Shown one piece after another: positions 5,395-10,923 of a stretch of DNA of 24,152 bases (positions within the stretch are counted from its first letter, which is position 1; every line of letters starts with the position of its first letter). This DNA is from Ectocarpus siliculosus. Taxonomy: Eukaryota > Sar > Phaeophyceae > Ectocarpales > Ectocarpaceae. The stretch spans positions 230,442 through 254,593 of the forward strand of contig FN647790.1 in assembly GCA_000310025.1 (NCBI GenBank), read 5' to 3'. The notes under the pieces are model-generated. The model was not told where the DNA came from, did no database searches, and was given only the letters and a program-made list of their open reading frames with translations. The position numbers and the translations under genes are program-made.

Positions 5395-8300
5395 ATGTCC
5401 CACCGTAAGTTCGAGGCTCCCCGCAACGGATCCCTTGGGTTCCTCCCCAAGAAGCGCACGAAGAAGCACCGCGGACACATCCGGTCCTTCCCGAAGGATG
5501 ATGCGGCGAAGGAGCCCCACCTTACGGCCTTCATGGCCTACAAGGTACGAGAGAGAGTATTTTTTTTCTTTTCCGGTGGTCCTTGTACACGCCAGCAGAC
5601 TGAACCTGAGTTCGGTTGCTCCTGTATCTTCCTGGACAGCCCCATTTGTATTGACAAACGTTCGAGAAATGCAATGCCACACTTCACCTTTGCGGCAGCC
5701 CTCGAAATGCAGGAAGGAGAAGAGCACGATAGCAATCGTATTGCAGGCACCGGAGCCTCGTTTCGGTCAACCTAGGCACACTGCATATTGTAGTTTGAAA
5801 TCCTGAATCCTGGCAAGACTAGCCTTTAGTTAAAACTGCAGTACGTGTTTTGCATGCATAAGAATCATCGAGGGACGAATACCGCGGTACAGCAGGATAC
5901 CAGAATAATATATGCCGAATAATCGGTGATTGCAGCGTCAATACTGGGCATGCATACGGCGTATACGTCAGATGTTTTCCTGCGTAGGTAACTCGTACAT
6001 ATCAAAGTATCCATTGCTTCCGAAGGTTGCCGCTGATGAAACACGCGTCGGACAAGTGAGAAATATCGCGAACCCCCCCACCACCGACTCGGTTGCCACC
6101 GGCCCCAACCACTGCTGTGCCACACATGCGTGGGGCGTTAGTTGAACGGCCCGCCGCCCGCCCCCAAACCCTTTCATGTTTTCATATTTTCCTACTCCAA
6201 CTCAACCACACGCTTCGGTGCGTGTCAACAACAGGCGGGCATGACCCACATCGCTCGCGAGGTGGACCGCCCTGGATCCAAGGTCCACAAGAAGGAGGTC
6301 GTAGAGGCGGTCACCATCCTCGAGACTCCCCCCATCGTTGTCGTGGGAGTCGTGGGCTACGTGGAGACCCCCAAGGGCCTCCGCACCCTCACCACCGTGT
6401 GGGCGGGCCACCTCTCGGACGAGTGCAAGAGGAGGTAAAAGGCGGGTGCTTCGTTGTAGCGTGTAGAGCGCAGGGGGGAAAAGGGAGACTGGTTTGTACT
6501 GACTTTGCTCCAAGTGGTAAACCGTTGACTGTGGGTCCCTGTACTTCAGTACTTGACGTTACCACGCTTTTGGGCGTCACACTGGCACTTGGGGGGACCT
6601 TTTTTTTTTTTTGAGATTAGGGAAGGAACCAGATTGCTTTTTTGGTCTGGCAGGCGAGAGCAACGATGAGCATTGGAGGCGGTTGGTCTGACTCGGGTGG
6701 TGGGTGCAGCGTTGCTTGTTTTGTGTCACGAGTGGCCGTGTGGGTGGGTGATATGTTCGCGGTTGCGTCCAAAGAGCGTCGACCAGGCTGAGAAAACATA
6801 GCTTCAAATGTAGATGCTTGCCACTTCATCTTGGAACTGATCAACCTCCTCTCTCCCCCCTCGCCGTCGACGATGACCGCGCGCGAAGGTTCTACAAGCA
6901 CTGGTACACGTCCAAGAAGAAGGCGTTCACCCGGTACGCCAAGAAGTTCGCGGACGCCCCGCAGGAGATCGACGCTGAGCTCGGCCGCATCAAGCAGTAC
7001 GCCCAGGTCGTGCGCGTCATCGCCCACACCCAGGTAGGAAGCGCGCGGTTCGTGATTGCAATACCCGCATGCGGTTTTGGTTCTGGACAAAGTTGACCTA
7101 CATGCGGATTTCGTTGCACATCGTGCGCAGTCGTGAAGGTCGTCGTGGCAGTTGGAAACACCAAGCTGTACACCCAGGGCGTGCGCGTGATCCTGCTCAC
7201 GCGCACGTGAGCCGTAAGACGAATCCAGAATGGTGTTTGTTGTAGTTTGGTCGTCGTCATCGCCGTTTTTCTGCTGTTGTTGCCACATTGCCATACGCAA
7301 CCGATTCCAAACTTGGCCCTATCCCCTCGGCCTCTTCTGCTGCACAGGTCGGCCTTGTCAAGCTGAGGCAGAAGAAGGCGCACATCTGCGAGATCCAGGT
7401 GAACGGCGGCGACGTGGCCGCTAAGGTCGACTTCGCCCGCGGCCTGTTCGAGCAGAAGGTGCCCGTGGACGCCGTCTTCGCCAAGGTGCGTTACGAACAC
7501 TTCGCTCCTCATTCGTTGGTAGAAGAAACCACAATTTGTGGTTAACGTATTTCTCGGCGCGGTCCGAATAATGTTTCACACTCGTTTGGTGTTGAATGGA
7601 CGGTTGCAGAGTGTTACCGGAATCGGATCTCGCACTGTCATGTCTGGCAGATGTGTCACAACCAAAGCAGATATGTCTCTTGAGACACATGAAGCGATAC
7701 GCTGGCCAAGTCACGAATTTTTCAGGCCCGCAAAAGCGAAGTAAGAGAGTAGGCTCTCAGTGCTGTGCGCACTCGCTTGTTAGTCGCTAGTGCTCAATAG
7801 GATTGGGTCGAAACTCGCGATGTCCTCGTGGGAACACAACACCCAAGCCCTTTAGGGGACCGGACAAAGTCGACATTGAAGGTGTTTTTCGTGGGTAGGG
7901 GCACAATGAAGCACGATTACGGTCAGGCGGGGGACAAAGCCCCTGGGACCGGTTGCCGGTAGTGCTCGTCACCTGACTACGCGTGGCGCTAAACGGTTAT
8001 ATAGATTTTGTTGGGTCGGGTTTTTGGAGTAGGAGTCATGGTGAAATCGTATTGGGCGATGTGTTTGCTCGGGGCTGGCCGCCAATCCGCATCTGTGGTG
8101 TTGGCGTTTCACTAGGAAGCCCTCGTTTGGCCAATGCATTTTTTTTGTTTGTGAGCCCAGGTGCGGATACGATTTTGTTGTGCAGGCAGCTTCACGGGGC
8201 GCGGCCCTTGTCGCCTACAGGGGTTGCGCCCTTTCGTGGTTCAGTCGAAAGCCTTCGGGTATAAAGCTGAACCGGTTGCCGAGATGGAAAATCACACCAG

Positions 8301-10923
8301 CTTTACACACTCACCGAGCCGGAGCTTCGGCGCGGATGTGCTTGGCCTTACACTGCTGGACATTTTGAAATCAACGGTCGCCCTTTGCGGCACCGTGCGT
8401 AGCACCCTGAGTTGGCCCTGTTGTGAATTGCTTGGTTTTCCTGTGCCGCTTCAGGGTGTTTCTGTTCGTGTTTGCGTTGGTCGAGCGTTGGCACTCCTCA
8501 TCGAAGTTTTAACTCCTCTCAATGTTGGTGCTGTCATGGAACACACCCTTCCCAGCGGGAGGGATGCATACCTCATGTTCGAAGCGTTCCGTTTTTTCCC
8601 TTTGTCGCTCTTGCGCAGGACGAGTGCATCGACGTGCTGGGAGCCTCCAAGGGTCACGGTACCGAGGGTGTGGTGACTCGTTGGGGTGTGACCCGTCTTC
8701 CCCGCAAGACCCACCGCGGTCTCCGCAAGGTGGCCTGCATCGGCGCGTGGCACCCTGCCCGCGTCAGCTTCTCCGTCGCCCGCGCCGGTCAGCACGGATA
8801 CCACCACCGTACCGAGGTGAGTTTTGTGCTTTTGATTTTGGCTATTCCGCCCCTCGTGTGGTGCTGTGCGCTCTTCTTGTCTGGAGTTGTAGAGAATGTG
8901 GTCCCCTTGAGATAGTAACTTTTTGGTAGACTCAAGCACCCGACTGTTCTCTCTCGATGCCTTGTGGCTGTTGTCGTGATTTTATGCATACTATGGTTGA
9001 TGTAGCTCATTCATACTGTGGCACCGCGGTTTCTTGCTGTTTCGACATCTCTTATCTTGTAGCAAATTTGTCCGCGCCAGCTCGCGCATTTGTAACCGTC
9101 GCTGATGTATGCTCCTTCATGTCCTGTTTTTTTGTTGACAGCTCAACAAGAAGATCTACCGGATCGGAAAGAAGGGCGACGTCGCTTCGGCCTCCACGGA
9201 GGCTGACCTTACGGTCAAGCACATCACCCCTCTCGGTGGATTCCCTCACTACGGCGAGGTACGATCAGATCAGACCTTGTCCTTCATTTTCGTCCATCGA
9301 TTGTCGCTGTACAGGTGCTTTCTTAACTGGTTTCAAGCAACGCATCTCATGAGATAAGATGATGTTTTCCTGGCATGGAGAGGTATCCGGGTGGGTCCTC
9401 ATCAGATAATCAGCCTTAAATTAGTTAGTAGAACATTTTGAGTTTCGCTGCTTTCCATCCCCTTCGAATGTGTGGGCTTGAGTTTTTTGTTTTGCCTTTC
9501 CTTGGTGGCTACCCGGAATATGAAGGGTACGGTAGACGGAGTTGACACGACCAAGTGCAGTTTGTCCTTTCCACAGCACAGTCATCCATCCCGAGACATC
9601 CGAAAAACTTAGTGTAGGCAAGGAAACGTGATGAACTTTGGGGACAGTGGCGGTATCAGTCTGAGTCAGTCTGAGAGATGCGGAAGCTGCCTGTTGACAG
9701 TCACGCCCGATCTAATGAGTTCTATTGCCCTTCCTCAAAGCGTAGTTGTCGTGTTTTATTGAGTAATATAGTTTTAGTTCCCGGCAGGTTCACGGGGCGC
9801 GGCTCTTGTCCCCTACAGGTTTCGCGCCCTTTTTCGGCTCAGTCGAAAACCTTCGGGTGGAAAGCTGAAGCGGTTGCCCAGATGAAAAATCACACCAGCT
9901 TTACACACTCACCGAGCCGGAGCTTCGGCGCGGATGTGCTTGGCCTTACACTGCTGGACATTTTCGTTGTCACCTGTTGTTTATTGGGGCATGGGGCAGG
10001 GTAGCTTTGCGACTGTTTTCTTAGACATCCTTCCCCCTTTTTTTTTCGTGTTGGTGTCCTGTTTCGGTTGTCTCCTCATGTTGTCGAAGGGGGACCACCT
10101 CCTTTTCGTGGGTAGCATAAGACCCCCTAGCTGATGCTTCGAGAGAGCATCCCATCCCCTTGTTTCTTGACCACCAAACACGAAGCACTGGCATACCTAT
10201 GCGTGCCAGAGGGAAGCTTGCGACGCACATTGTTTTCGTTGCCTTCGTTGCCTTCGGGCGAATTGTCGTGGTGACAAGGCTACCTCCTGGTGGTTCCCCC
10301 AAAGCTGAGCCCGGTTCCCGTGCTGTTATCGTTTTGGCAGATCAACGAGGACTGGCTGATGCTCAAGGGCTGCGTCATCGGGTGCAAGAAGCGCTGCATC
10401 ACCCTGCGCAAGTCTCTCATGAGCCACTCCCGCCGCATCCACCTCGAGGTTGGTATTGTTTGGTCGATTTGTTTGTTTTCCTGTTGCGCACCACTCGACC
10501 TCTTCCATTCTCATGCGCCCATCGTTCAAGATCGGTTGGTACGTACGCATTTGCGTGTCTTTGCCTCACCAAGAGACAACGGGTGCAGAGCCGTTAGTAG
10601 TGCCCTGTGCCGTAGGTGGGTGTTGTTCAGGTGTATGTTTATTTTGTTTTCCAATACTTCGGTGTTGTTTTACTGGTTTGTTGTGTTGTTGAATGCTTGT
10701 TTCTCATTCTGTGTTGCGTATGCTTAAGCGATTTGGATAACCGCCTTTGCTCGAGCCACTCTGATACCGACGTGCGCAAATCCCTTGTTTTCCCCTCGAT
10801 CCTCAGCAAGTGGAGCTCAAGTTCATCGACACCTCGTCGAAGTACGGCCACGGACGCTTCCAGACGAAGGAGGAGAAGGACAAGTTCCTGGGCCCTCTTG
10901 CGTCCAAGCTGCCCAAGGCTTAA
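5395..10923 (+). CDS. RPL3: 60S ribosomal protein uL3 (RPL3), eight exons
   Basis: Exons: 5395-5544, 6235-6434, 6889-7033, 7348-7485, 8619-8816, 9142-9258, 10341-10448 and 10807-10923 (stop TAA). All introns are GT...AG. The total is 1173 nt, or 390 residues, close to yeast L3 (387) and human (403). The start is fixed by [20 protein letters not shown], with A at -3. uL3 is a core protein of the large subunit that reaches the peptidyl-transferase centre. The family signature lies at about residues 209-232 (F, D216, G219, S221, GHG, G228, R232). KTHRGLRK with His243 (a methylated histidine in yeast) and GAWHP with Trp255 (the tip of the central finger) are present at the yeast numbering. Codon use is strongly C/G-ended (AAG, CTC, GTC, ATC), as expected for high expression, unlike the gene downstream. 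Introns 4 and 6 carry a duplicated snoRNA-like element, and intron 3 an exon-like island. Confidence 0.97.
6600..6612 (+). repeat. Poly-T tract in RPL3 intron 2
   Basis: Thirteen consecutive T within intron 2, 166 nt after the donor. It could act as a decoy polypyrimidine tract, but no good AG acceptor follows immediately. Recorded as simple sequence only. Confidence 0.85.
7131..7206 (+). other. RPL3: Exon-like island in RPL3 intron 3 (candidate poison exon / exon-3 remnant)
   Basis: A 76-nt GC-rich segment is bounded by gtgcgcag on the left and GTGAGC on the right, both good splice-site matches, inside a T/G-rich intron. Within it, 7163-7192 matches 6992-7021 of exon 3 at 26 of 30 positions. 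In that frame it reads [13 protein letters not shown], against [13 protein letters not shown] at the end of exon 3. Inserted between exons 3 and 4 it would be read TCG TGA at once, so inclusion would truncate the protein at about residue 166. Its length is not a multiple of three. It is either a decayed partial duplication of exon 3 or a cassette whose inclusion sends the message to decay. Without transcript data the second option is a hypothesis. Confidence 0.45.
8185..8365 (+). ncRNA. Candidate box H/ACA snoRNA, copy 1 (RPL3 intron 4)
   Basis: This is an intronic element with a near-identical copy in intron 6. The 5' part is closed by GGCAG (8185-8189) with TTGCC (8276-8280) and contains GGGCGC/GCGCCC and TTCAG/CTGAA stems. 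An H-box-like AAATCA (ANANNA) lies at 8289-8294. The 3' hairpin runs CCAGC (8297-8301), a 12-nt left strand, CCGAGC, an apical part with GCCG/CGGC, GCTTGG, a 9-nt right strand and GCTGG (8355-8359). It abuts ACA (8360-8362), with three bases to the proposed 3' end. The pocket-to-ACA distance is 14 nt, as the H/ACA class requires. H/ACA snoRNAs guide pseudouridylation of rRNA with dyskerin, Nhp2, Nop10 and Gar1, and often sit in ribosomal-protein introns. The 5' domain is more branched than usual, and the target is not assigned. Confidence 0.6.
9783..9963 (+). ncRNA. Candidate box H/ACA snoRNA, copy 2 (RPL3 intron 6)
   Basis: This is a second copy of the intron-4 element, same orientation and length, with 16 differences that all fall in the first 104 nt. 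The last 79 aligned bases, including the H-box-like AAATCA (9887-9892), the whole 3' hairpin (CCAGC 9895-9899 with GCTGG 9953-9957) and ACA (9958-9960), are identical. The closing GGCAG/TTGCC and the GGGCGC/GCGCCC stems are retained despite the changes around them. Such uneven divergence suggests selection on the 3' guide pocket, or a recent conversion covering only that half. The copy lies 377 nt before the exon-7 acceptor; copy 1 lies 253 nt before the exon-5 acceptor. Confidence 0.6.

Follow-up and report, generated by a model that had tools for sequence, protein, structure and literature searches.

The RPL3 gene and its intronic repeat

The window analysed here is a stretch of 24,152 nucleotides of the brown alga Ectocarpus siliculosus (contig FN647790.1), and the gene of interest within it is that of ribosomal protein L3 (RPL3), identified by matches of all three exon pieces submitted to Pfam to the family PF00297. 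Two of its introns carry near-copies of one block (Table 1). By the reading of the exons and their borders, exons 1 to 4 precede the first copy, and the copies therefore sit in introns 4 and 6. In intron 3 of the same gene, a segment of 34 nt (7159-7192) is 85% identical to 6988-7021, the end part of exon 3, and from its sequence it resembles a decayed exon duplicate.

Table 1. Coordinates of the host introns and of the parts of the two copies, with the basis of each assignment
Feature	Position in window	Strand	Basis or detail
Intron 4 of RPL3 (holds copy 1)	7486-8618	+	exon reading and borders
Intron 6 of RPL3 (holds copy 2)	9259-10340	+	borders GAG/GTACGA and GGCAG/ATC
Presumed mature RNA of copy 1, ending at ACA+3, in RPL3 intron 4	8185-8365	+	repeat, alignment, fold z -2.97
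5′ domain, copy 1	8185-8280	+	stem 8185-8191/8274-8280 closes hairpins 8196-8232 and 8238-8273
H box AAATCA (ANANNA), copy 1	8289-8294	+	descriptor match
3′ hairpin, copy 1	8297-8359	+	descriptor match, constrained fold
Lower stem, copy 1	8297-8301/8355-8359	+	descriptor
Upper stem, copy 1	8314-8319/8340-8345	+	descriptor
Pocket strands, copy 1	8302-8313 and 8346-8354	+	12 and 9 nt
ACA box, copy 1 (block ends 4 nt further)	8360-8362	+	fold, descriptor, alignment
Copy 2, presumed mature RNA, RPL3 intron 6	9783-9963	+	repeat; the minimum-energy fold (z -1.39) is not H/ACA-like
H box AAATCA, copy 2	9887-9892	+	within identical block
3′ hairpin, copy 2 (same as copy 1)	9895-9957	+	descriptor, alignment
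Lower stem, copy 2	9895-9899/9953-9957	+	descriptor, alignment
Upper stem, copy 2	9912-9917/9938-9943	+	descriptor, alignment
Pocket strands, copy 2	9900-9911 and 9944-9952	+	descriptor, alignment
ACA box, copy 2	9958-9960	+	descriptor, alignment

The two copies align without gaps over 182 nt (8185-8366 against 9783-9964) at 91% identity. An earlier note on this DNA, made from the letters of the sequence, had described such near-copies in introns 4 and 6, and the alignment bears it out; its figure of 181 nt for the repeat is corrected here to 182 nt. All 16 differences fall within columns 6-103, and columns 104-182, the final 79 nt, are without change, again as the note had said. If differences were spread evenly, the probability that all 16 would lie in the first 103 columns is 6.4e-5, and that of a clean run of at least 79 columns is 0.001. 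The 79-nt identity could reflect gene conversion. Outside the block, introns 4 and 6 are unrelated (the next best mutual match is 13 nt, with E=0.043), which agrees with the earlier statement that the homology of the introns is limited to the element. The homology begins at the first base of the closing stem of the 5′ domain and stops at ACA+4; mature H/ACA RNAs usually end at ACA+3.

Copy number in the genome bears on whether the block is simply a piece of mobile or inert DNA. Widespread occurrence as a transposon-derived repeat had been named beforehand as an outcome that would speak against a functional RNA. In the genome (189 Mb, 492 contigs), at least two places carry the block and, among the matches listed, both are the RPL3 copies, in the sense orientation. 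Likewise, a pattern of 24 nt taken from the 3′ hairpin, allowing up to three mismatches, gave two forward and no reverse matches among those listed, and none in a reversed control. The 15-nt flanks to the left and right have no 5-mer in common at either copy, and thus no target-site duplication is seen. A transposon was rejected on these two grounds, the copy number (among the matches listed) and the flanks. An inert duplicated block, or a small mobile element whose good fold is accidental, would fit copies that are 91% alike amid otherwise unrelated introns, as well as the partly decayed look of copy 2; but the presence of two listed copies, both sense and in the same gene, the flanks and an uneven divergence that leaves the 3′ hairpin unchanged all run against it, and we regard it as very improbable.

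Structure of the element

In the predicted fold of copy 1, a 5′ domain is joined to a 3′ hairpin set against the ACA by a linker that contains the H box AAATCA. The H box, which conforms to ANANNA and lies in the hinge in both copies, had already been pointed out upstream of the 3′ hairpin, and is present there. Specifically, a 5-bp lower stem of the 3′ hairpin abuts the ACA, and the block ends at ACA+4, the 3′ end of the RNA itself being presumed. The distance from the top of the pocket to the ACA is 14 nt, within the range of 14-16 nt that is expected of H/ACA RNAs, in a fold that is not the one of minimum energy: the hairpin with the pocket is predicted at -18.2 kcal/mol, i.e. 2.2 above the minimum of -20.4. 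The pocket fold is therefore plausible by the folding model, yet it is not the predicted resting fold.

A descriptor was composed after the element had been seen, and asks for a 5-bp lower stem at the ACA, a 6-bp upper stem 13-16 nt above the ACA, a pocket and a nearby H box. On the + strand of the window it matches solely at the two copies, and since both matches fall within copies of one block they count as one independent event. There are also two matches on the minus strand of the window, and five in total over 12 Markov shuffles. Without the H box, the descriptor finds seven (+) and eight (-) distinct ends in the window, against 2-7 (mean 4.5) in the shuffles; these higher counts and the minus-strand matches indicate that the shuffles somewhat understate chance. 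At the shuffle rate of about 1.7e-5 per base, a descriptor match that ends at the very border of the homology is nevertheless unlikely to arise by chance.

The 5′ half is less regular. In copy 1 it folds as a three-way junction with a 7-bp closing stem and without a usable pocket, closing 8 nt upstream of the H box; the domain is weaker in copy 2, where, folded alone, it retains one hairpin and a closing stem shortened to 5 bp (-40.5 kcal/mol, against -53.8 in copy 1). At full length, copy 1 reaches -75.9 kcal/mol (z -2.97), a value equalled by 2 of 200 shuffles, while copy 2 has a z of -1.39, is equalled by 18 of 200, and has a minimum fold that is not H/ACA-like. When the 16 substitutions are set on the copy-1 fold (counted by eye), eight fall in loops or the linker, four break pairs, two keep or improve a pair, and the remaining two break one unless the stem shifts by one, so this comparison holds no evidence of covariation.

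A probable duplicated intron-encoded H/ACA RNA

Taken together, the element probably consists of two copies of one intron-encoded box H/ACA RNA, where any function is allowed for, including a non-guide function of the snR30/U17 kind. This reading is preferred because it accounts for the boundaries, the H box, the ACA, the 14-nt spacing and the unchanged 3′ hairpin, and agrees with the copy number and with a location on the sense strand of ribosomal-protein introns. The element shares with known intron-encoded H/ACA guides an H box of the form ANANNA, an ACA close to where the RNA would presumably end, a pocket with two sides placed 14 nt above the ACA and a position in a sense intron of a ribosomal-protein gene; it differs from them in its pocketless 5′ domain, in having no Rfam match and in having no recognisable target. 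It is probably an ordinary H/ACA RNA that is absent from Rfam and has an odd 5′ half.

The earlier note had called the 3′ hairpin a textbook one. Its stems, two-sided pocket, 14-nt spacing and ACA all stand, and an H/ACA pair remains the best explanation of the boxes, limits and spacing, but the word ‘textbook’ is too strong, because the pocket is not in the minimum fold, the 5′ half has no usable pocket, copy 2 does not adopt this fold at full length, and neither an Rfam match nor a standard target above chance in the reference rRNA was found. The covariance-model search that had been proposed as a check came back without a family: Rfam has no match in the window at the gathering score, and none at E<=10 for 8130-8420, the region of copy 1 with its flanks, which is what the scan at the lax threshold covered. 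A candidate for the machinery is at hand, in the form of one match to the DKCLD (dyskerin) domain in the genome (C11, E 1.4e-29). A scaRNA was rejected, as the UGAG of a CAB box, expected in a terminal loop, has no counterpart (TGAG) in either copy.

In the proposed mechanism, each copy would encode the same box H/ACA snoRNA on the sense strand of its RPL3 intron. The RNA would be released from the excised intron and trimmed by exonucleases to a dyskerin-bound core, with its end about 3 nt past the ACA. The working part would be the 3′ hairpin: in its pocket (UUUACACACUCA / CCUUACACU) an rRNA target would be bound, most likely so as to position one uridine for pseudouridylation. The 5′ domain would mainly provide a scaffold on which the core proteins could assemble a second time. 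That the element is transcribed, released and assembled into an RNP, and that it leads to any modification, is inferred. That it is a standard pseudouridine guide seems likely to us, though less so than an H/ACA RNA of any function. Should it be real, the element would be a duplicated H/ACA RNA hosted by introns and without an Rfam match, and a case where one half of such an RNA is free to diverge and the other half is held fixed. The pair was not found reported in the portions of the literature that were searched, and the Ectocarpus list made with ACAseeker may hold an entry for it; passages of PMC4513859 describe the prediction of snoRNA loci in Ectocarpus with ACAseeker and CDseeker.

A structure that acts in cis within the RPL3 introns, e.g. 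one through which L3 regulates the splicing of its own transcript, would make the likeness to H/ACA RNAs superficial. A cis role has real precedent in the autoregulation of ribosomal-protein genes through their introns: PMC13232506 describes three yeast ribosomal-protein genes that are autoregulated via introns, two of which need a predicted conserved intronic structure, and structured motifs occur in fungal ribosomal-protein introns (PMC5640933). The element resembles these systems in being a structured RNA within introns of a ribosomal-protein gene, and differs from them in its H and ACA boxes and in borders like those of a trimmed RNA. Why an element acting in cis should stop at ACA+4, contain an H box or keep a spacing of 14 nt is not obvious, and the copies are separated from their 3′ splice sites by about 250 and 375 nt, in introns that are not adjacent. 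Such a role is quite improbable in our judgement, and the H/ACA reading is kept in what follows.

Search for a target

The reference rRNA for the target tests was eukaryotic rDNA from five records titled as bacterial metagenome-assembled genomes (MAGs; L017-L021), in which it is contamination. These records were retrieved by a pattern of the GTPase centre, and that motif is thus present in all five by construction. Of the 18S gene of the genome itself, the 3′ part alone was recognised (C28:5113-5837, L009); the sequence upstream looks unrelated, and C28:1-5000 reads N. This 18S part is 71-80% identical to three of the references over most of its length, which means that none of them is a close relative. 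The target tests left out the viral contigs L012-L016.

Five models of the pocket were scanned for standard uridine targets in rRNA, and no convincing conserved site was found. With the pocket as drawn in the earlier note, the best standard target with an unpaired UN did not exceed chance: its score was reached by 35, 109 and 231 of 300 shuffled guides in three rRNA sets, from three of the five MAG records. The genome’s own U2, U5 and U6 gave no convincing target site either; the top score among these snRNAs, a U2 site with a score of 21, came from an alternative pocket model and without a shuffle control, and was judged not convincing.

The best pairing of the pocket lies in the GTPase centre of the 28S rRNA. 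The left pocket strand pairs over 10 nt with GAGUGUGUAA at -15.0 kcal/mol, which is its top site in each of the two LSUs scanned. If the right strand also pairs, with the UAAG that adjoins this site, the result is a flush match of 14 bp in total that leaves no unpaired UN. This match was noticed before being tested. At least 14 pairs in the LSU and SSU of L017 were reached by 24 of 4000 shuffled guides and by 22 of 4000 pseudo-guides drawn from the window (about 0.6%), and by none of 300 shuffled guides in a smaller run. Judged by eye, the guide would apparently have to bulge out 3 nt in a register that frees a U of the GTPase centre. The complementarity is a lead, not a target; it is concrete and checkable, and the interest of the element is modest unless it holds. 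According to PMC8351944, this segment of the GTPase centre is modified in Arabidopsis, and in neither human nor yeast.

A possible non-guiding role similar to that of snR30/U17

The same match suggests a sub-case of the H/ACA reading, namely a non-guiding RNA of the snR30/U17 kind whose pocket would clamp the 28S GTPase centre (UAAG+GAGUGUGUAA) as a folding chaperone, without pseudouridylating it. Like the element here, vertebrate U17 is present more than once within the introns of a single gene. As set out in PMC7601244, snR30/U17 combines a 5′ domain that varies and lacks a pocket with a 3′ hairpin of standard form (14-16 nt to the ACA) and with the motifs m1 and m2, and human U17 measures 207 nt, a length similar to that of the element. 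The variable pocketless 5′ domain with extra hairpins, next to a standard 3′ hairpin, is shared with snR30/U17 (SNORA73), and both strands of the pocket can pair at the site, the left one having its best site there. On the other hand, the 14-bp match is expected by chance at the rate given above and was seen prior to testing, the best sites of the right strand lie elsewhere (among the top three listed), and the comparison was made with 28S sequences other than that of Ectocarpus. Moreover, snR30 binds 18S, via the basal side of its pocket, whereas the best rRNA match found here is in 28S. The motifs of snR30/U17, m1 AUAUUCCUA and m2 AAACCAU, do not fit either: with m1 as given in Table 1 of PMC7601244, neither copy has a site within two mismatches, and m2, from the same source, has sites with one or two mismatches only, none of them in the pocket strands of either copy. 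The anatomy of U17 thus fits and its motifs do not, and identity with snR30/U17 was rejected on the motif test. By analogy, the element may still work in a way similar to U17, and we consider the non-guiding clamp unlikely. Its boldest form, a duplicated non-modifying H/ACA RNA that would clamp the 28S GTPase centre during 60S assembly as the large-subunit counterpart of snR30/U17, has only a slim chance of being right; if true, that counterpart would be encoded inside the gene for a 60S protein, RPL3.

Other rRNA and snRNA sequences

Several further matches were met in these searches. Two 5.8S-like matches in the genome, of 75 and 46.9 bits (L005, L006), were not taken as a working gene, and 28S patterns elsewhere in the genome fall in an unrelated-looking gene (L010). 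A lone 28S scrap of about 110 nt (L011 1501-1610, on C25) matches the 28S query at 94% identity; the sequence around it looks unrelated. Among the viral contigs, L012 and L014 carry the GTPase-centre motif in a 28S-like context, L013 and L015 share another context, and L016 begins with a 28S-like eukaryotic piece of about 110 nt that gives way to other sequence, and is perhaps a chimeric assembly. As for the snRNAs, the five listed U5 matches (on C479, C47, C3 and C9) each have a U2 match no more than about 1.2 kb away, and the genes of these two snRNAs seem to be clustered in this genome.
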